The notes: generated by a model not told the origin, from the letters alone. Positions 37,987 through 47,317 are shown, counted from the first letter of the stretch. The stretch: DNA of 64,000 nt from Candidatus Treponema caballi (GCA_018066285.1 JAGHRS010000019.1:62001-126000); one strand, 5' to 3'. Numbers and translations are program-made.

Positions 37987-39552
37987 ATGAAAACCCTTAT
38001 TACGCTTTTTGCAGAAAAAATAGAAAAAGAATTCCTTCCTGAAGTCATTTCCTGGGCATGTTCTGTTCCGGATGCATCGAAAATCCTTATCTGCGGCGGC
38101 AATGCGGATGTGCTTGCAGCTGCAGAAAAAGACATTCCTGAATTTGAGCAGTCCTTACCTGTAATATATGCAGAAACGCCGCTTCTGGCTGATGTTTTAA
38201 AAGCTGTTCTTGATACTGCGGATGATGCTGAGACAGTTCTTTTCGGGCGTCTCGAGTGTCCGTTCTATGATGCAAGACTCACCGCGGAAACGTATAAGCT
38301 TCATACAGATTACGCTGCTGAATACTCGTTTGCTGACGGCTATCCGTTTGGCGTTGTTCCGGAATTTGTGGCAACCGGTACTGTCCGTACGCTTCAGGCG
38401 CTTTGTGGCATGAAAGACGGATTTGCTGAAAAGCCGTTCGATAACGAGGCGCTTTTCTCACTGATTAAGACTGACATCAACTCTTTCGACATAGAAACGC
38501 TTATTTCTCCTGTTGATTACAGGATGCTCCGCCTTGACTTCTCGTACAGCACAAAGCGCGGTCTCGTTCTGTGCCGCCGCCTCGCTGCCCTTAAGTCAGA
38601 TCTGACAGCAAAACTGGGCCATGCTCCATCTGCTGTTGAGCTGTGCGATGAGGCTTCCGTAAATGAAGGAATACTTCACACGCTGCCAGGTTTCTACGCG
38701 GTGCAGGTTTCAGCGGCTTGTGCGGGAACCTGTAATTACTGCCCGTACCCCGAAGCCTGCAAGAAAAAGTATGGTACGGCGCCATCAGCATGCAAGACAT
38801 TCATGAAGAAAGAAGATTTCGCGCGCCTTGTCGATAAAATCGCTGCATTCTCAGATGACGCCGTCGTCTCTCTTTCACTCTGGGGCGAGAGCCTGCTTCA
38901 TCCTGAGATTGTTGAGCTCATAAAAACTGTGCTTTCAAAGCCATCTCTTTCTATATTGATAGAGACAGACTGCGAGAATCTGACGCAGCCGCTCATTGAT
39001 GAAATTGCCGCAGCCATAAAAGCCGCTTCTCCGCGGACTAACGGCAAGAGCGCCGTCATGTGGATTTGCGGTGTTGACGCTGTCTCTGAGGCAACGTACC
39101 GTGCCCTTCACGGAGAAAACGGGCTGACGCTTGCTGCCGTAACCGAAAAGGTTCATGCACTTGAAGCTGCGTTCCCTGGTGATGTGTACGCCCAGATGGT
39201 CCGCGTCAACGAAAACGAGGATGAGCTTGAGACGTTCTTCCGCGGCTGGAACAACCGCATCATCCAGAAGTACGACTATGTGTCAGGCCAGTTGCCCGAC
39301 AGAAAGCCTGCTGACTTAAGCCCGGTAAAGCGTAACTGCTGCTGGCACCTGCGCCGCGACATGAGCATCCTCGTGGATGGAAGTGTCCCGCTCTGCCGCC
39401 AGTTCATGTTCTGCTCTGTAGTTGGAAATGCGCTTACCGATGACCTTGAAACAATCTGGAAGGCTTCAGAAGAAAGCCTTGCACTTCATATAGAAGAAAA
39501 ATACGAAGGATTATGCCGGAACTGCGATGAGTTCTATACCTGCAACTTTTAA
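37987..39552 (+). CDS. Spiro-SPASM radical SAM protein
   Basis: A 521-residue protein with three parts. Residues 1-230 are an unfamiliar N-terminal alpha/beta domain. A radical SAM domain follows with the 4Fe-4S motif CAGTCNYC (C245, C249, C252) and SLSLWGESLLHPEI. A SPASM-like end has CCWHLRRDMSILVDGSVPLC and a CRNCDEFYTC cluster that would bind a second iron-sulfur centre. It fits the TIGRFAM family named spiro-SPASM, which is restricted to spirochaetes and has no known reaction. It heads a four-gene unit with glycan-type enzymes, and the next gene starts 26 bp inside its end. Confidence 0.9.
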   Translation: MKTLITLFAEKIEKEFLPEVISWACSVPDASKILICGGNADVLAAAEKDIPEFEQSLPVIYAETPLLADVLKAVLDTADDAETVLFGRLECPFYDARLTAETYKLHTDYAAEYSFADGYPFGVVPEFVATGTVRTLQALCGMKDGFAEKPFDNEALFSLIKTDINSFDIETLISPVDYRMLRLDFSYSTKRGLVLCRRLAALKSDLTAKLGHAPSAVELCDEASVNEGILHTLPGFYAVQVSAACAGTCNYCPYPEACKKKYGTAPSACKTFMKKEDFARLVDKIAAFSDDAVVSLSLWGESLLHPEIVELIKTVLSKPSLSILIETDCENLTQPLIDEIAAAIKAASPRTNGKSAVMWICGVDAVSEATYRALHGENGLTLAAVTEKVHALEAAFPGDVYAQMVRVNENEDELETFFRGWNNRIIQKYDYVSGQLPDRKPADLSPVKRNCCWHLRRDMSILVDGSVPLCRQFMFCSVVGNALTDDLETIWKASEESLALHIEEKYEGLCRNCDEFYTCNF

Positions 39553-40489
39553 TGAGCGCCAGATAAAGCGCGTCATTCTGGGCGGTGAAAAACCCAGGAC
39601 AAATGCAAAGATTTCTCTTTCAGTCATCCTCCTGAGCAGGAGTGGTACGCCGTTCCGTGCAGGAAACCTTGACCAGCTGCTTTCCATCGGCTTTTCGGAC
39701 ATCATTTCCGTTGAGATGTCTGCTGAAAATTACAACCTGGAAGACATTTCACGACGGTATCCGTCTGTGAAGTTCATCGCACCTGAAGAAAAATGCACGC
39801 TCGGGGATATGATCAACATCGGCATGTCAGAAGCCCGCGAGAATTACGTGCTTGTTGTGTGGGATACGCTTCACATTCCGCCGCGTTCAATCAATTCGTA
39901 CGTGTTGAAACGCCTTGAGGATGAGAATATCCTCTGCTACGTTCCTATGCTTTCAAATGCCCTCATGCAGTCTCTTCCTGTCAGGATGATGCCATCCGTT
40001 GAGAACAAGGCGCTTTCCGTAACTGGCGAGCTTGTCGTTCAGGATAAGGCCCCGACGCTCTATCCGGTTGATTATGTCGGTCTCTACAACAAAAGGAAGT
40101 TTAAGGAACTTGGCGGATATGATTATTCCATAAAGTCACCATACTGGCAGAATCTTGATTTTTCTATGCGCGCATGGCTCTGGGGGGAACAGATCCGCAT
40201 GATGCCGCAGCTCCGCTTCAAGTACGAAACTGAGTTCCAGTCAGAAGATACAACGCCAGATTATTCCCAGCTCAAGTTTTTCCTTAAGAATATTGCCCCG
40301 CGTTTCAGCGAGGATCATGCATATATCCCGAAATCGCTGTTCCTGTCGTATTACAGAAACTCTGGCTGCGGTATTACCGAAGCTTTTGAGGATTTCAGGA
40401 AAGCCCGCATCTGGGTGGAAAAGAATAAATACCGTTTCAAGACAGATGCATCTCATCTTGTAACATCATGGGAGAGTCTTCCTTTATGA
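39527..40489 (+). CDS. Glycosyltransferase family 2-like protein
   Basis: A 320-residue soluble protein with a GT-A-like layout: SVILLSRSGTPFRAGNLDQL as the first strand and turn, LGDMINIGMSEARENYVLVV leading to a possible metal motif (WDTLHI, in place of DxD), and YPVDYVGLYNKRKFKELGGY later, the acceptor-side signature of many GT2 enzymes. The metal motif is not canonical, so activity is uncertain. It overlaps both neighbours (26 bp upstream, ATGA downstream), which indicates tight coupling within the spiro-SPASM cluster. Confidence 0.8.
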   Translation: MSSIPATFNERQIKRVILGGEKPRTNAKISLSVILLSRSGTPFRAGNLDQLLSIGFSDIISVEMSAENYNLEDISRRYPSVKFIAPEEKCTLGDMINIGMSEARENYVLVVWDTLHIPPRSINSYVLKRLEDENILCYVPMLSNALMQSLPVRMMPSVENKALSVTGELVVQDKAPTLYPVDYVGLYNKRKFKELGGYDYSIKSPYWQNLDFSMRAWLWGEQIRMMPQLRFKYETEFQSEDTTPDYSQLKFFLKNIAPRFSEDHAYIPKSLFLSYYRNSGCGITEAFEDFRKARIWVEKNKYRFKTDASHLVTSWESLPL

Positions 40490-42918
40490 CAATAGTTATC
40501 GTTCAAAGCCGTCTCGGCTCAACACGCCTTCCGGAAAAGGGGTTGCTCCCCGTCGGCGGAAAGCCTGCCATCGCTCATGTGCTTGATACCATGCGTCATG
40601 TTCCTGCAGATGCGTATTACCTTGCTACTGATGAGGCATCATACGAAAGGCTCGCTCCTGTTGCGGCAGACTGCGGCTGGGAATGCTTCGCCGGTCCTGC
40701 TGAAGATGTGCTTGAACGCTTCTGCCTGCTCATTGAAAAAACACATGCAGACGTTGTTGTCCGGGCAACCGGCGATAATCCCTTCCTTTTTGCTGATGCC
40801 GCTTCGGCTTCCCTTGAAGAATTTCTGTCAAGAATAGAAAAGGGAAATCCGTGTGACTACTTCACCTATACAGGCCTTCCACACGGAAGCGGCATAGAGG
40901 TTATGAATGCCGCCTCGCTTCTTGATACAAGAAGGCTTACAAAAAGCCCTTATGACCATGAACATGTAGGGCCTGCACTCTATAACCACGACGATTATTG
41001 GAAATGCGTTTTCGAACCGGCTCCTGAAAAGTGGAATCATCCAGAACTCAGGACGACGATTGACACGTTCGGAGATTACCGTCGCGCATTACGGATGTTC
41101 GAAGCCATGAAGGAAAACGGCCCAGCCTGCGGTTGCGACCCGGCTGCACGGACAGCTGCCATCATTGAAGCAGCGAACCTTCCGTACATAAAGAATCCGG
41201 TACTTTTCGTGCCTTCAACTGAAGCCGGACACGGAACGGGCCATCTCCGCCGCTGTCTTTCTCTTGCAAAAGAACTGAACGCTGACATATACATCCCTGA
41301 AGACGCAACGCTTGCAGAAGCAGAACCGCTGCTTGCCGAAACAGGTCTTGATTCCCTTCAGGTAATCAGAACGCTGCCGGTTCCGTCCGAAGCAGAACCG
41401 CGGTCCATGTATTCGCTTGTTGTTGCAGACATGTTCTCTCTTAAGGATACGTTTGCAAAGAAACTGCGTGCGCTCGGACCGCTTGCCGCCATTGATGAAG
41501 GCTCATCGTTCACAGACTGCTGCGATTACCTGCTCGACATCATTCCGGCTGTGCAGTACACACGGCGTCCCAATTTCCAGAATGCACAGTTCATTCCGCT
41601 TCCGGAGCACAGAAAAACGGCGCCTGTCACTGAATGTAAGACGGCGCTTGTTTCCATCGGCGGTGAAGACCCTAAGGGCTTTACCGCTGTTGCAAAAGCT
41701 GCGTGTGAAGCTCTCGGCCTTGCCGTTACGGCGGTTACCGCGGAGGCTCCCGTTCAGAACCTGAAGGAAAAGCTCGCTGACTATGACCTTGTTGTCACGC
41801 ATTACGGCTTTACCGCTTTTGAGGCGCGCGCCGCAGGGTGCCGTGTGCTTACGCTTGCAACCACGCCGCTTCATCAGAAACTGTCTGAAGCTCAGGGATT
41901 CGCCTGCATTCCGGCAAAGGAACTTTCTTCTGCTAAACGTGCTTCGTCAGCTTTCAGCCGTGCCCTTGTAGAATGCGGAGGTAACGAAGGCTTCCGGCAG
42001 ACAGAAAGCGGAAGTCACGAAAACGCGGACCTTGCTTCTTACCTCAGGGATCTCGCATCAGGTCACAGAAACTTCTGTCCTGTGTGCCGTGAAAATGCAG
42101 CTGATCCTGTCGTTGCACGCACACAGTACAAAACGTACAGAAAGTGCCCTGTGTGCGGCATGACCTATCTTTCATGGAGCAGAAAACCTGTATCGGATTA
42201 CAGCAAGGCTTATTTCTTTGAAGAATATAAAAATCAGTACGGAAAAACGTATCTTGAAGATTTTGATTTAATAAAAAAGCAGGGCGAACGCCGCATGGCA
42301 GAAATCTGCGCTCTGTATGACGATAAGAAAAAACTGCCGAAAAAGGTACTCGACATAGGATGTGCGTACGGCCCGTTCCTTGCAGCTGCAGCTCAGTCAG
42401 GCTGGCGCTGTTACGGAACAGACATATCAGAAGATGCCGTTACATATGTCCGCGACAATCTCGGTTTTCATGCAGTGACTGCAGCATATCCGGCTCTCGA
42501 TGCGGATGAGCTTGATTCGCATGCATTCGGAGCCGTGACCATGTGGTATGTCATTGAGCATTTTGAAGACCTTGACGCCGTTCTGGCAAAGACAGCAGAA
42601 CTGATTCCTGAAGGCGGCGTTTTCGCGTTCGGTACACCGGCAGGCCACGGCGTCTCATCCACATACTGCCCGGATAAGTTTTTTGAGCAGAGTCCGTCTG
42701 ATCATTACAGCATCTGGGATGAAAAGACCTGCGGAAAAATCCTTGCAAAATATGGTTTCAGAGTAGTGAAGACAGTCTCAACCGGACATCACGCGGAACG
42801 TTTCCCGCTTAAAAAGCAGGCAGCCGCCGGTAGTTTCAGATACAGACTGCTCACTGTATTCAGCCGGATGCGTCATCTCGGTGACACGTTCGAAGTGTAT
42901 TGCGTAAAGACAAGGTAA
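40486..42918 (+). CDS. Cytidylyltransferase/PseG-like/methyltransferase fusion
   Basis: An 810-residue three-part enzyme. Residues 1-235 match SpsF/NeuA-type cytidylyltransferases (VQSRLGSTRLPEKGLLPVGG, RATGDNP), which activate acidic sugars with CMP. Residues 240-520 resemble PseG sugar-nucleotide hydrolases (EAGHGTGHLRRCLSLAKEL, VSIGGEDPKGF, VVTHYGFTAFEARAAGC). Residues 530-810 have a zinc ribbon with two CxxC pairs (CPVC, CPVC), then a class I SAM methyltransferase (VLDIGCAYGPFLAAA, GTDIS). I start at the ATG at 40486, which forms ATGA with the previous stop and has GGGAG ahead. The fusion suggests successive steps on one nucleotide sugar. Confidence 0.9.
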   Translation: MTIVIVQSRLGSTRLPEKGLLPVGGKPAIAHVLDTMRHVPADAYYLATDEASYERLAPVAADCGWECFAGPAEDVLERFCLLIEKTHADVVVRATGDNPFLFADAASASLEEFLSRIEKGNPCDYFTYTGLPHGSGIEVMNAASLLDTRRLTKSPYDHEHVGPALYNHDDYWKCVFEPAPEKWNHPELRTTIDTFGDYRRALRMFEAMKENGPACGCDPAARTAAIIEAANLPYIKNPVLFVPSTEAGHGTGHLRRCLSLAKELNADIYIPEDATLAEAEPLLAETGLDSLQVIRTLPVPSEAEPRSMYSLVVADMFSLKDTFAKKLRALGPLAAIDEGSSFTDCCDYLLDIIPAVQYTRRPNFQNAQFIPLPEHRKTAPVTECKTALVSIGGEDPKGFTAVAKAACEALGLAVTAVTAEAPVQNLKEKLADYDLVVTHYGFTAFEARAAGCRVLTLATTPLHQKLSEAQGFACIPAKELSSAKRASSAFSRALVECGGNEGFRQTESGSHENADLASYLRDLASGHRNFCPVCRENAADPVVARTQYKTYRKCPVCGMTYLSWSRKPVSDYSKAYFFEEYKNQYGKTYLEDFDLIKKQGERRMAEICALYDDKKKLPKKVLDIGCAYGPFLAAAAQSGWRCYGTDISEDAVTYVRDNLGFHAVTAAYPALDADELDSHAFGAVTMWYVIEHFEDLDAVLAKTAELIPEGGVFAFGTPAGHGVSSTYCPDKFFEQSPSDHYSIWDEKTCGKILAKYGFRVVKTVSTGHHAERFPLKKQAAAGSFRYRLLTVFSRMRHLGDTFEVYCVKTR

Positions 42919-42931
42919 GGGGAGGAATATC

Positions 42932-44533
42932 ATGTCATCAGTTTTCATTTTAGGTGCGGGACTCATGCAGCGTCCTGCAATTGAGGCGGCTCACCGTCTC
43001 GGATACAAGGCGGTTGTCGCTGACGGAAGCCCGAAAGCCCCCTGTGCTGTCCTCGCTGATACGTTTGTCCATATTGATCTGAAGGACCGTGACGCGCTGT
43101 ATGCATATGCGCTTTCCATTAAGGATGAGCTTGAAGCTGTTTTCACAGCCGGAACTGACTTTTCCGCGTCTGTTTCATATGTTGCAGAAAGACTTGGGCT
43201 TAAGAGCCATCCGTTTGAGGCTGCACTTAACGCCAGTGACAAGATCAGGATGCGTCGCGCTTTTGCTGAACATGGTGTTCCGTCTCCTGTATTCTGTGAA
43301 ATCACTTCTGATGAGTGGAATGTCTGTGTTGCTGAAACTGGTGCGGGGCATCATGCTGCTCAGAAACTGCTTGAAAATGCAGGATTTGCAGATTTTCCGC
43401 TTGTCATAAAGCCAGTAGACAATATGGGTGGCCGCGGCTGCCGCATGATCAACGATGCTGCTGAACTTTCAGATGCTGTTTCTGAAGCTTTGAAATATTC
43501 CCGCTCAGACCGCGCTGTCCTTGAAGACTACATGAACGGGCCTGAGTTTTCCATTGATGCGCTTGTCTTTAACGGAGAAGTGACCATTACGGGCTTTGCG
43601 GACCGCCATATATACTTCCCGCCGTATTTCATCGAAATGGGACACACCATGAGCACTGACATAGGTCATGATGACTGGAATGCGCTTGTCTCGTGCTTTG
43701 CATCCGGAATAAAGGCGCTGGGGCTTACGCATGGTGTTGCAAAAGCTGACATAAAGCTTACTCCCCGCGGTCCTATGATTGGAGAAATTGCCGCCCGGCT
43801 TTCAGGCGGCTACATGTCCGGCTGGACATATCCGTATGCGTCTGACTTTTTCCTGACCGAGCAGGCATTACTGCTTGCTCTTGGAAAGGAACCCCGTGAA
43901 ATCATGCAGAAACGCGTACCGACAGATATTCCCGGCATTTATGACGTGCCTTGTGTGCGTACAAGCGCAGAACGCGCGTGGCTTTCCATTCCTGGAAGAA
44001 TAAAGGATGTGCTTGGCCTTGAAGACGCCGCACAGAGCGCTTCCATCCGCGATGTCCTGCCACGCGTTTCAGCCGGTGACACCATCACGTTCCCGGTAAA
44101 CAATGTCGGAAAATGCGGCAACGTCATTTCTGTGGCGGATACGCGCGAGGCTGCTGTTGCTGCAGCTGAAAAAGCAATTTCTTCAATAATTGTGCGGCTT
44201 GAGAAAGACAATGCTGAAACAGACGCCTTCCTCTCATCTCCGCTTTCCACTGCATATCCGCCGTCAGCGTACCAGCTTGGTACAGATGTGTATGCGGAAA
44301 TAGATGCAATTGCCTCCGACGCGCGCTTAACGCTTTCAGCAGACTCTGTCCCCGCACTCCTCAAAGGTTTTGAAGACTGTGCCGACTGGAACAAACGGAC
44401 TGTAAAGCAGGCTCTTTCTGCAATTCATGCAGTATGTGGGGACTGCTCCGTACCGGAAAAGAAGTTTGTATGTGCACTTGTACGCGGGGGCATTCAGGGC
44501 GCGCTTTATGTCATTGATACGGAGGTCAGGTAA
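42932..44533 (+). CDS. ATP-grasp ligase-like protein
   Basis: A 533-residue protein. The N-terminal pre-ATP-grasp domain (MSSVFILGAGLMQRPAIEAA) and ATP-grasp core (FPLVIKPVDNMGGRGCRMI, EDYMNGPEFSIDALVF, KADIKLTPRGPMIGEIAARL) resemble carbamoyl-phosphate synthase and PurK/biotin-carboxylase relatives. Such enzymes join a carboxylate to an amine or thiol through an acyl-phosphate. The substrate is unknown; attachment of an amino acid to a sugar acid would fit the cluster. The last 130 residues form a helical tail of unknown role. GGGGAGG precedes the ATG. It is the fourth gene of the unit. Confidence 0.88.
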   Translation: MSSVFILGAGLMQRPAIEAAHRLGYKAVVADGSPKAPCAVLADTFVHIDLKDRDALYAYALSIKDELEAVFTAGTDFSASVSYVAERLGLKSHPFEAALNASDKIRMRRAFAEHGVPSPVFCEITSDEWNVCVAETGAGHHAAQKLLENAGFADFPLVIKPVDNMGGRGCRMINDAAELSDAVSEALKYSRSDRAVLEDYMNGPEFSIDALVFNGEVTITGFADRHIYFPPYFIEMGHTMSTDIGHDDWNALVSCFASGIKALGLTHGVAKADIKLTPRGPMIGEIAARLSGGYMSGWTYPYASDFFLTEQALLLALGKEPREIMQKRVPTDIPGIYDVPCVRTSAERAWLSIPGRIKDVLGLEDAAQSASIRDVLPRVSAGDTITFPVNNVGKCGNVISVADTREAAVAAAEKAISSIIVRLEKDNAETDAFLSSPLSTAYPPSAYQLGTDVYAEIDAIASDARLTLSADSVPALLKGFEDCADWNKRTVKQALSAIHAVCGDCSVPEKKFVCALVRGGIQGALYVIDTEVR

Positions 44534-44538
44534 CGAAA

Positions 44539-45576
44539 GTGTTTAGGAAAGCGCTGCTTATACTTACAGTTTTTTTCCTCGCCATAAGTGTGCTGCCGGC
44601 TGAAAATACCGTAAATGTCACTGCGTTTGCTGATGAACTTGATGTCCAGCTGTACTGGGATCCGCTTACAGGAAGCTGTATGTTTGAGAAGAACGGTCAT
44701 TCTGTTTCATTCCGTACCGGTGAAGAAATTGCGCTCTTTGATTATGCAACGTTTGCAATGATTGAAGCGCCGACAGTGAAAAAGGGCAGCCTGTTCATAT
44801 CCTCTGATTTTGCTGATAAGATTCAGGGTCTTTTTGACGCTCAGTCAAATGAAAGCCTTTTCAAAGTCGGTGCAATCCTGATAGATCCTGGTCATGGCGG
44901 AAAAGACCCGGGGGCAGTGGCGGAGCATACCATAAATGGGAAAAAAGTTACTGTCTGTGAAAAGGATATTACGCTTGCAGCCTCTAAAAAGCTGTACTCA
45001 CAGCTCCAGAAGGAGTATCCGGACAAGAAGATAGTCCTGACCCGCTCTGATGACCGCTATCTGTCGCTTGAGGAACGCGTTTCTATTGCCAATTCACTTT
45101 CCCTTGCTCCTGACGAAGCAGTTCTGTATCTGTCCATTCATGTGAACAGCGCGTTTGACAAGAAAGCTGCCGGTTTTGAAGTCTGGTATCTGAGTCCGGG
45201 GTACCGCAGAACGGTCATCAGCGAAGATGAAGTCGATGATGCATCCCTGCGCAATATCCTCAATTCCATGATGGAAGAGGAATACACGACAGAAAGCATT
45301 CTTATTGCAAAATACATACAGGATGGCCTTAATCTTGAAATCGGCGACAAAGTCCCCAACCGTGGCATCAAGCAGGAAGAATGGTTCGTAGTCCGCAATG
45401 CAAACATGCCGAGTGTACTTGTTGAGCTTGGATTTGTCTCAAATCCCGCGGAAGCAGCCCTGATGGTTGATGACGCTTACTTGAACAAGATGGTATCGGG
45501 CATATATAATGGCCTCGTTGCGTTTGTGACGCATTTTGAACAGTCCCGGGGATTTACGGGACTCCAGGAAAGGTAA
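44539..45576 (+). CDS. N-acetylmuramoyl-L-alanine amidase
   Basis: A 345-residue exported amidase_3 enzyme. It has a signal peptide (MFRKALLILTVFFLAISVLP, cleavage near PAE), a 70-residue AMIN-like start, then the zinc amidase domain with ILIDPGHGGKDPGAV, LYLSIHVNSAF and the glutamate in VLVELGFVSNPAEA. It should cut the bond between N-acetylmuramate and L-alanine in peptidoglycan. The start is GTG, six bases after the ATP-grasp gene, so it likely shares the transcript. It precedes the GerMN and flaA genes, the same order I recall from Treponema pallidum. Confidence 0.92.
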   Translation: MFRKALLILTVFFLAISVLPAENTVNVTAFADELDVQLYWDPLTGSCMFEKNGHSVSFRTGEEIALFDYATFAMIEAPTVKKGSLFISSDFADKIQGLFDAQSNESLFKVGAILIDPGHGGKDPGAVAEHTINGKKVTVCEKDITLAASKKLYSQLQKEYPDKKIVLTRSDDRYLSLEERVSIANSLSLAPDEAVLYLSIHVNSAFDKKAAGFEVWYLSPGYRRTVISEDEVDDASLRNILNSMMEEEYTTESILIAKYIQDGLNLEIGDKVPNRGIKQEEWFVVRNANMPSVLVELGFVSNPAEAALMVDDAYLNKMVSGIYNGLVAFVTHFEQSRGFTGLQER

Positions 45577-45580
45577 AACC

Positions 45581-46069
45581 GTGGATAAGAAGACCTCATT
45601 AATCACAAAAATCATCGTATTTTCATCGATTTTCGTCGTGACCTTTACCATTTCTCTTGTGTATATTCTGGTCCAGAAAACGGATGAAAGATTCGTCTGT
45701 CTTTTTGAATCGCTTGATGATGCAGAAATCCATGTCGAGACAAGATATGTTAACAGAATACCTGAAGAGGATGAAATCAAATGCTTCTTAAAGGAGCTTC
45801 TTCTCGGCCCCATGACAAACCGCTACAGACCGCTGTTTGCTAAAGGCACTACGCTTGAATCCTGCTTTATCCGCGATGGTGTTCTTTTCATTGATTTGTC
45901 TGAAAATGCACTTCTGAAATCCGGTTCATCATCTGAAACGGAACGTGCATGTGAACTGCTGAAAGAAAACATTATGAAGAATTTCAGTACGGTTACTGAC
46001 ATAAAGATTTTCATTTCCGGTACGGAAGCATATAGAAGAGATAACGTGTTAATCGTAGACGGAGACTGA
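45581..46069 (+). CDS. GerMN-domain membrane protein
   Basis: A 162-residue protein with one N-terminal membrane helix (about 10-32) and a single GerMN domain: VETRYVNRIPEEDEIKCFL, LLLGPMTNRYRPLFAKGT and VLFIDLSENALLKS. GerMN domains occur in envelope lipoproteins linked to peptidoglycan. Here there is no lipobox, so it is held by an uncleaved helix. I start it at the GTG at 45581, five bases after the amidase stop, with AGGAAAGG ahead. It is probably a partner of the amidase. Confidence 0.85.
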   Translation: MDKKTSLITKIIVFSSIFVVTFTISLVYILVQKTDERFVCLFESLDDAEIHVETRYVNRIPEEDEIKCFLKELLLGPMTNRYRPLFAKGTTLESCFIRDGVLFIDLSENALLKSGSSSETERACELLKENIMKNFSTVTDIKIFISGTEAYRRDNVLIVDGD

Positions 46070-46086: not shown

Positions 46087-46116
46087 TTGACAAAAGCAAT
46101 TGTCCTTTCGTATAAT
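46087..46116 (+). promoter_or_regulatory. Strong promoter of flaA
   Basis: TTGACA (46087-46092), 18 bases and TATAAT (46111-46116): both hexamers match the housekeeping consensus exactly. The start site should lie near 46123, leaving a leader of about 36 bases with AAGGAG before flaA. Confidence 0.85.
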
Positions 46117-46158: not shown

Positions 46159-47262
46159 ATGAGGAAGAGTTTTATTGTTATTGCAATTGCACTCCTGCTT
46201 GTAGGATCATTTGCAATTTGTGAAGAAGGTGTTCTTATCGATTTTACAAAGTTGAGCGCAGATATTACGGTCAACAAAGCGAACGCCAAGACAGATGCTG
46301 ACGGTAACATCCTTGCTGATGAAAACCGCCACACAGTAATTGATTATGGTGCAACTGCAGGTGCAACATTCACAGAAGACCAGAAGTCACTGATGAAGAC
46401 ATCTCTCTATCTGGGTAACTGGGAAGTTGAGCTTAACTCTTCTGCAAGAAACGCTGTAAGTCTTTCCAACTCAGTTGTAAAGGCTGCTCCTGTTCGCACA
46501 GAGAAAGCAGGTCAGAATGAAGATGAGACTGTTGCAGTAACAGTTCCATTCGCAGGTCAGGAAGTCATGGGTGTACGCATTGTATTCCCTGAGACAAACG
46601 TAAACTCAAATGCAAAGGTTGTACCTCCATTTGAAATTCCTGCTTTCGATGCAATGGTTGACATTGATGATGATGGAAACTCAACAGGAAAGAATACTTC
46701 CGGTTCAACAAAGACCCGTTTCGAGGATGGCTATGGTGTTCTGAAGAATGTAGGAACAATCAAGTCAATCTCAGTAACAACAATGGGTATGAACTTCCCG
46801 CACGGACTGTATGTAATCCTTAAGGATACAGATGGTGTAACACGCCGCTACTTCATGGGTTACCTCGAGTTCGACGGATGGAAGGAACTGGTTTGGAACA
46901 ACCCGACATACATTACAGATATCCGTGCACGTGAAATCAGAGTATTCCCGATTTATCCACGCGGAACACCATATGTAAAGTTTGTTGGTTTCCAGATTAC
47001 ACGTGATGCAGCTGATGTTGGCGGAAACTTCGTCGGATACTTCAAGGACGTAAAGATCATCTACGATAAGGCACTCCTTACAACAGAGCGTGATATCGCT
47101 GATGAAGACCTGTGGGGTATTGTAACAGACCGTGAGTCTGCAAAGCAGGATTACGAGATGACAAGATTCGGTAACAAAGAAGTTGACCGCTATCTTGAAA
47201 AGGCAAAGTCAGCAACAGAAACAGGATTTACTTCAAGCATCCTTGCTGAAGTTGTTGACTAA
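46159..47262 (+). CDS. flaA: Flagellar filament outer layer protein FlaA
   Basis: FlaA forms the outer sheath of the periplasmic flagellar filament of spirochaetes. This 367-residue protein has a signal peptide (MRKSFIVIAIALLLVGSFA) and the FlaA domain with NWEVELNSSARNAVSLSNS, VRIVFPETNVNSNA and DGWKELVWNNPTYI. The codon choice is more uniform than in neighbours (many AAC, GAA and ACA), which fits high expression, as do the perfect promoter and AAGGAGC ribosome-binding site. A terminator follows at once, so it is a single-gene transcript plus read-through from the amidase side. Confidence 0.95.
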   Translation: MRKSFIVIAIALLLVGSFAICEEGVLIDFTKLSADITVNKANAKTDADGNILADENRHTVIDYGATAGATFTEDQKSLMKTSLYLGNWEVELNSSARNAVSLSNSVVKAAPVRTEKAGQNEDETVAVTVPFAGQEVMGVRIVFPETNVNSNAKVVPPFEIPAFDAMVDIDDDGNSTGKNTSGSTKTRFEDGYGVLKNVGTIKSISVTTMGMNFPHGLYVILKDTDGVTRRYFMGYLEFDGWKELVWNNPTYITDIRAREIRVFPIYPRGTPYVKFVGFQITRDAADVGGNFVGYFKDVKIIYDKALLTTERDIADEDLWGIVTDRESAKQDYEMTRFGNKEVDRYLEKAKSATETGFTSSILAEVVD

Positions 47263-47283
47263 CCAGAACTCCGACTGATATGA

Positions 47284-47317
47284 AAAAGACCGTCTTTTAT
47301 GGCGGTCTTTTTTTATT
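47284..47317 (+). terminator. Rho-independent terminator after flaA
   Basis: AAAAGACCG (47284-47292) pairs with CGGTCTTTT (47303-47311), followed by further T. Confidence 0.88.

Follow-up and report, generated by a model that had tools for sequence, protein, structure and literature searches.

A spirochaete gene cluster linked to flaA and its probable part in nonulosonic acid glycosylation of flagellin

A stretch of 64,000 nucleotides from Candidatus Treponema caballi (GCA_018066285.1, JAGHRS010000019.1:62001-126000), here called the window and numbered from its first letter, contains at positions 37987-44533 four genes that encode a spiro-SPASM protein, a glycosyltransferase-like (GT-like) protein, a fusion enzyme with domains of nonulosonic acid (NulO) metabolism, and an ATP-grasp ligase. 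Our analysis indicates that this cluster very probably belongs to the synthesis of flagellin NulO. A reading made earlier from the sequence alone (the sequence-only reading) had observed that the four genes overlap or nearly touch; calls of open reading frames (ORFs) agree, and the cluster was confirmed as real, contiguous and conserved. The spiro-SPASM and GT-like ORFs share 26 bp, and 13 bases separate the fusion gene from the ligase gene. The longest ORF of the fusion gene begins at 40468, and an internal ATG at 40486, which creates an ATGA overlap with the stop of the GT-like gene, is the likely start. The features of the cluster are as follows.

37987..39552, + strand: spiro-SPASM protein, 521 amino acids (TIGR04321, 483.8 bits)
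38719..38742, + strand: CX3CX2C radical S-adenosylmethionine (SAM) motif CAGTCNYC, residues 245-252, present in the window protein
39340..39525, + strand: near-invariant C-terminal cysteines C452, C470, C510 and C513, a twitch-type auxiliary iron-sulphur (Fe-S) site
39527..40489, + strand: GT-like protein, 320 amino acids, with a predicted GT-A fold and no family over cut-off
40486..42918, + strand: fusion of an SpsF-type CMP-NulO cytidylyltransferase, a PseG-like UDP-sugar hydrolase and a zinc-ribbon SAM methyltransferase
40492..41109, + strand: cytidylyltransferase domain CTP_transf_3 (PF02348, 7.4e-30)
41212..42012, + strand: PseG-like domain (TIGR03590, 1.3e-6, below the PseG cut-off)
42076..42771, + strand: zinc ribbon (CPVC..CPVC, read from sequence as CPxC/CxxC) and Methyltransf_23 (PF13489, 5.6e-22)
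42932..44533, + strand: ATP-grasp amide ligase with LAL_C2 (PF13535, 7.5e-16; PF18603, 2e-16)

The linkage of these four genes stands, but the string does not close at 44533, where the sequence-only reading had ended the unit; it continues through an amidase and a GerMN protein to flaA.

44539..45576, + strand: N-acetylmuramoyl-L-alanine amidase, 5 bp past the ligase gene, a conserved neighbour (PF01520, 8e-49)
45536..46069, + strand: GerMN-domain protein, a conserved neighbour (PF10646, 3e-9)
46087..46116, + strand: sigma-70-like flaA promoter TTGACA-18-TATAAT, a 12/12 match, inside the longest flaA ORF
46159..47262, + strand: flaA, endoflagellar sheath protein (PF04620, 6e-74)
47282..47313, + strand: intrinsic terminator after flaA, with a 13-bp stem and T tail

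The longest flaA ORF starts at 46087, and its likely true start is MRKSF at 46159. Since flaA has a promoter and a terminator of its own, its linkage does not imply co-transcription with the cluster, and these signals suggest that it can be expressed separately from the glycan genes.

Gene neighbourhoods were compared at 40 spirochaete loci from many families and at 80 further named loci from genome contigs. Among the 40 neighbourhoods, the order spiro-SPASM, GT-like, SpsF, PseG/methyltransferase, ligase, amidase, GerMN and FlaA was contiguous in most members of class Spirochaetia. All seven markers (spiro-SPASM, GT-like, fusion, ATP-grasp, amidase, GerMN and FlaA) were found in 60 of the 80 named loci, and many of the remaining 20 lie on short contigs. 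The sequence-only reading had offered the recurrence of the four parts across spirochaetes as its check, and had accepted that the genes being unlinked in all other spirochaetes with the SPASM protein would count against it; the linkage recurs, and the downstream position of flaA is conserved with it. Outside the window's own family SpsF and PseG-methyltransferase are two separate genes, in several more distant families adjacency is limited to spiro-SPASM, SpsF and PseG, with no methyltransferase, and the Brachyspira-like family has spiro-SPASM on its own. The spiro-SPASM, GT-like and fusion genes stand together, with the ligase gene elsewhere, in a genome of 2,843,201 bp (G165) and in one of 1,139,633 bp (G056), which we take to be T. 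denticola ATCC 35405 and T. pallidum Nichols, respectively.

Co-occurrence was surveyed in 296 spirochaete genomes, with presence lists compiled by hand. The spiro-SPASM protein was present in 240 of them, the ATP-grasp ligase in 239 and a NeuB-type NulO synthase in 235; all three were present in 217 and all three absent in 44. Each pair gave a Fisher p of about 1e-30 or lower, uncorrected for shared ancestry. Of the 44 genomes without the trio, those listed belong to three families: one Borrelia-like, with genomes of 1-1.8 Mb, one Sphaerochaeta-like, presumably the Sphaerochaeta group without flagella, and a third that is small. Maf proteins (PF01973) were found in 251 genomes, including every genome with spiro-SPASM and none of the 44 that lack the trio. 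When 12 genomes were inspected singly, Maf was present in 3-4 copies in each of ten with the cluster and absent in two without it; the window's own genome has four copies. This pattern is a stronger link between the cluster and flagellin glycosylation than the flaA neighbourhood. The 1,139,633-bp genome keeps the spiro-SPASM, GT-like and fusion genes, the ATP-grasp ligase, NeuB, a PseC-like protein, an SYK-type PseB-like protein and four Maf genes, and all pathway parts occur in G165. Nearly all flagellated spirochaetes keep the gene set, among them, it appears, the syphilis bacterium with its very small genome.

We also observed a tandem pair of Maf genes, similarly surrounded, in the window's own genome and in the presumed T. 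pallidum and T. denticola genomes (L211, L213, L217), and another Maf gene that follows a signal peptidase and a gene resembling those of penicillin-binding proteins (PBPs) (L210, L216).

The domains assigned to the fusion enzyme by the sequence-only reading were all recovered, the PseG match at its sub-threshold score. The cytidylyltransferase domain has its closest solved structure in a Leptospira cytidylyltransferase (6oew, 1.9e-17), and with loop residues R15, S18, R20 and K24 invariant it is probably a CMP-NulO synthetase. The PseG-like domain contains GHGTGHLRRC, in which His259 is invariant in the homologue alignment; we take this GxGH histidine to occupy the position of the catalytic histidine of PseG. 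The GT2-like fold proposed for the second gene fared less well. The GT-A fold is confident (AF2 pLDDT 91), but neither a GT2 profile nor a conserved DxD was found, and the fold is nearest to the polypeptide GalNAc-transferases of GT27 (Foldseek 2ffu/4d0t, 9e-13). No family profile was over cut-off (best PF10111, 0.031), and in the DxH/DxD metal motif D113 occurs in 27 of 35 sequences with no conserved second acidic or histidine residue. The candidacy of this protein as the flagellin transferase was set aside, the Maf proteins making it superfluous and its metal motif being unconserved.

The fourth gene encodes an ATP-grasp enzyme, as had been proposed. The protein carries ATP-grasp_4 and LAL_C2, which place it in the ligase family, and its best solved relative is the L-amino acid ligase 3vot (3e-39). 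It shares fold and LAL_C2 with L-amino acid ligases such as BL00235 and BacD. Unlike these, the ligase is fused outside Spirochaetia to an alpha-hydroxyacid dehydrogenase dependent on flavin mononucleotide (FMN) (PF01070, to 5.5e-69), which suggests an alpha-hydroxy acid as its substrate. In Spirochaetia there is instead the fusion of the methyltransferase to PseG. The active-site NHGGR of the dehydrogenase is intact in three of six fusions examined, being kept in L190, L191 and L196 and lost in L189, L192 and L193, and the domain appears to be a second decaying part of the pathway.

Pseudaminic acid is made through PseB, PseC, PseH, PseG, PseI and PseF, and it is PseH that normally N-acylates the precursor. 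PseH was over cut-off in none of 12 genomes searched, and G056, G194 and G006 gave not even a weak hit; weak GNAT matches were seen in several genomes, and a short hexapeptide acyltransferase profile had no match in G056 or G165. With no PseH over cut-off and an amide ligase conserved and co-occurring, the ATP-grasp ligase is the natural candidate for N-acylation. The remaining pathway enzymes are encoded elsewhere. The window's genome contains a NeuB/PseI-type synthase (PF03102, 7e-56, with a SAF domain) that does not reach the NeuB and PseI equivalog cut-offs, and SYK-type PseB-like and PseC-like proteins were found in G056, G006 and G194. The synthase gene (L034, 13453-14568) lies beside a YebC/RuvC region, unlinked to the glycan cluster, and adjoins genes for a 2024-residue alpha-2-macroglobulin-like lipoprotein and a PBP1C-like protein.

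The spiro-SPASM protein scores 483.8 bits against a TIGR04321 cut-off of 250, a cut-off exceeded in 227 of the 296 spirochaete genomes; none of 14 control genomes had a match at E 1e-20, and by this comparison the family is restricted to spirochaetes. The motif and the cysteine-rich end that the sequence-only reading had pointed out are both present in the window protein, whose predicted structure is confident (AF2 pLDDT 92, pTM 0.90). The C-terminal half is similar to BtrN and MoaA and has a BtrN-like barrel followed by a twitch/SPASM region (Foldseek BtrN 4m7t, 1.4e-10). The N-terminal half resembles cytidylyltransferases, the best match being again the Leptospira enzyme 6oew (1.6e-7), and a profile comparison of this half with the neighbouring SpsF domain (hhalign, P 93.6, E 2e-7) gave an alignment that begins only past the CTP-binding loop. 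Judged from sequence and fold, the N-terminal domain is related to the cytidylyltransferases but lacks the CTP loop; BtrN and MoaA have no such domain.

The cysteines of the SAM cluster and those of the C-terminus have had different fates. Among 131 distinct homologues, CX3CX2C is retained in 57 and occurs with altered spacing in one; the other 73, including those of the presumed T. denticola and T. pallidum genomes, are without it at any position. The state of the motif changes 15 times on the tree, and at least ten of these changes are forced by well-supported branches; this is a quick tree with some long branches, unrooted, so that the direction of change is unset. In contrast, C452, C510 and C513 occur in all 130 classified homologues and C470 in 129, and within the 73 that lack the motif the first three are always kept and C470 is kept in 72. 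Four conserved cysteines make a twitch-like count, short of the approximately seven cysteines and two auxiliary clusters of a full SPASM domain. Loss of the SAM cysteines from 73 of 131 homologues in which the C-terminal cysteines stay argues that the radical SAM reaction is not the conserved function, and consequently the place in the core chemistry that the sequence-only reading had given to this reaction was not upheld. The pattern suggests a structural role or that of an Fe-S-dependent partner, and the protein looks like a double pseudoenzyme. Radical SAM deoxygenation had also been considered as the origin of a 3-deoxy acyl chain and was rejected for T. denticola, the homologue in its presumed genome being without CX3CX2C. 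The NCBI name is 'spiro-SPASM' and not 'radical SAM', perhaps, we presume, because the curators had noticed the loss of the motif; under 'spiro-SPASM' no literature was found in searchable papers.

We propose, as a fairly probable reading taken whole, that the cluster is the spirochaete version of Maf-dependent NulO glycosylation of flagellin. PseB/PseC-type enzymes encoded elsewhere would produce a UDP-4-amino-4,6-dideoxy-N-acetylhexosamine, which the ATP-grasp ligase would N-acylate, using an alpha-oxygenated carboxylic acid. Release of the sugar from UDP would fall to the PseG-like domain, the NeuB/PseI enzyme encoded elsewhere would condense it with phosphoenolpyruvate, and the cytidylyltransferase domain would convert it to its CMP form. 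O-methylation of the acyl group would be the work of the fused methyltransferase, and Maf proteins (3-4 per genome) would transfer the product to Ser/Thr of FlaB. The spiro-SPASM protein would be a conserved accessory, probably a scaffold or an Fe-S-dependent partner of the sugar-activating enzymes, with radical chemistry possible only in lineages that keep CX3CX2C, the window genome among them. We infer the substrate, the order of the steps, the position of the methyl group and the scaffold role from the evidence above, and we give the assignments of ligase and methyltransferase slightly better than even chances. The sequence-only reading had envisaged a spirochaete pathway that both makes and attaches a modified acidic sugar. 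Linkage and the co-occurrence of NeuB and Maf bear out a NulO pathway tied to flagella; attachment to flagellin is most likely carried out by Maf proteins encoded elsewhere.

This proposal can be compared with known flagellin glycans. The T. denticola glycan is reportedly (Kurniyati et al., 2017) a NulO of pseudaminic configuration with an acetyl group on N5 and a 2-methoxy-4,5,6-trihydroxyhexanoyl group on N7; the calculated formula mass of that structure is 450.185 Da. The N7 originates in the 4-amino group, the usual site of acetylation by PseH. The reported amide would consequently need exactly an amide ligase and an O-methyltransferase, as the cluster offers. T. denticola FlaB does carry a glycan of 450.2 Da, which filament assembly and motility require (PMC9481697). 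Searchable papers yielded no report of the genes for its acyl chain and no biosynthetic gene set for a spirochaete flagellin sugar. In Leptospira the glycans of FlaB1 lie at the interface of core and sheath (PMC13144727), which makes a link between the cluster and the sheath gene flaA sensible. The flagellin of C. jejuni NCTC 11168 provides a parallel, in that its 2,3-di-O-methylglyceroyl pseudaminic acid, dependent on Cj1295, likewise has an O-methylated alpha-hydroxy acid in amide linkage (PMC3068675). However, that acyl group sits on N5, Cj1295 is proposed to cleave the acetamido group for substitution, and no ATP-grasp enzyme is mentioned (PMC3068675). With the pseudaminic and legionaminic acid systems of Campylobacter, Helicobacter and Aeromonas, the spirochaete genes share a dehydratase and aminotransferase, a PseG-like hydrolase, NeuB/PseI, a CMP-NulO synthase and Maf, and the O-glycan is likewise needed for filament assembly. 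The spirochaetes differ in having an ATP-grasp ligase instead of a PseH over cut-off, in the fusion of PseF, PseG and methyltransferase, in the added spiro-SPASM and GT27-like proteins, and in a scattered gene set of which one block is tied to flaA.

Several observations weigh against the proposed route. The fit with the T. denticola glycan depends on its detailed structure being as reported. The PseG, NeuB and PseC matches are all below equivalog cut-offs, an acetyltransferase of another family could perform the N-acylation, and in the presumed T. denticola and T. pallidum genomes the ligase gene stands apart from the other three. The model also leaves unexplained what the GT-like gene and spiro-SPASM do. 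Furthermore, the window's own genome gave a single good PseB-like match, which is of the SMK type (retaining, PglF/WbpM-like) and lies near PseC-like and PglC-like genes. The SYK/SMK distinction separates FlaA1/PseB from WbpM/PglF, and the sugar of this organism may therefore not be of pseudaminic configuration, or the gene may lie in a gap. The locus in question, on contig C16 (L082, 1-7680), encodes a PglF/WbpM-like dehydratase, a PseC/PglE-like aminotransferase, a PglC-like initial glycosyl transferase and a glycosyltransferase, and is interrupted by an ATPase/DUF pair and two further genes that look inserted or defence-like. Its candidacy as a clean PseB/PseC pair is weakened by the SMK-type dehydratase and the PglC-like gene, and it is possibly a separate locus for a bacillosamine-type glycan.

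Three other explanations were weighed. The ligase could decorate a finished NulO or glycoprotein, for example with an amino acid, while a non-PseH acetyltransferase makes a di-N-acetyl sugar, so that the cluster would be an ordinary pseudaminic or legionaminic acid pathway with an added decoration. The LAL_C2 domain and the L-amino acid ligases among its best solved relatives speak for this, as do the weak GNAT matches and C. jejuni side-chain decorations such as N-acetylglutamine (PMC3068675). We nevertheless judge it unlikely, because PseH being over cut-off in none of the 12 genomes counts against it, the FMN dehydrogenase fusion favours a hydroxy or keto acid over an amino acid, and the T. 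denticola structure, if it is as reported, needs no more than a single acetyl and a single unusual acyl group to make up its entire mass. The suggestion of the sequence-only reading that an amino acid is linked to the sugar is accordingly better recast as N-acylation of the precursor by the ligase, for which an amino acid may still be the substrate. More improbable again is a function of the cluster in a surface or periplasmic polysaccharide or lipoprotein, with the flaA linkage incidental. The GT-like gene, the amidase and the GerMN proteins are not specific to flagellin, and the separate promoter of flaA fits such a function. Set against this are the presence of Maf, the flagellin NulO transferase family, in all genomes with spiro-SPASM, the absence of the pathway as a block from the Borrelia-like and Sphaerochaeta-like families, and the glycosylation of T. 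denticola and Leptospira flagellins (PMC9481697, PMC13144727).

The third explanation concerns the spiro-SPASM gene only and could hold alongside the proposed NulO route: the protein would be a true radical SAM enzyme acting on either the sugar or its acyl chain, and a simpler glycan would be made in lineages where the motif is missing. BtrN is a radical SAM dehydrogenase of an aminocyclitol, and the window protein has CX3CX2C, a GE motif and a complete twitch fold whose nearest counterpart is BtrN; CX3CX2C is also kept in 57 of the 131 homologues. Its loss from 73 in a tree with at least ten changes, set beside the persistence of the C-terminal cysteines and of key N-terminal residues, makes this rather doubtful, though less so than the late decoration considered above. 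When the product of an enzyme is dispensable the entire gene usually disappears, but the presumed T. pallidum genome, of 1.1 Mb, retains this one.

The analysis provides a concrete list of genes for the flagellin sugar of spirochaetes, one present even in that 1.1-Mb genome. This matters because flagellin glycosylation is essential in T. denticola and in Leptospira appears to hold the sheath to the core (PMC9481697, PMC13144727). A bolder formulation, which we hold tentatively and at somewhat less than even chances, is that an ATP-grasp enzyme N-acylates a nucleotide sugar independently of coenzyme A and so replaces PseH, with a double pseudoenzyme of the SPASM family as Fe-S scaffold or sensor. 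If true, the N-acylation would be a new acylation step among known nonulosonic acid pathways. The spiro-SPASM family also offers a clear example from nature of selection maintaining a radical SAM protein whose SAM cluster has been lost repeatedly.

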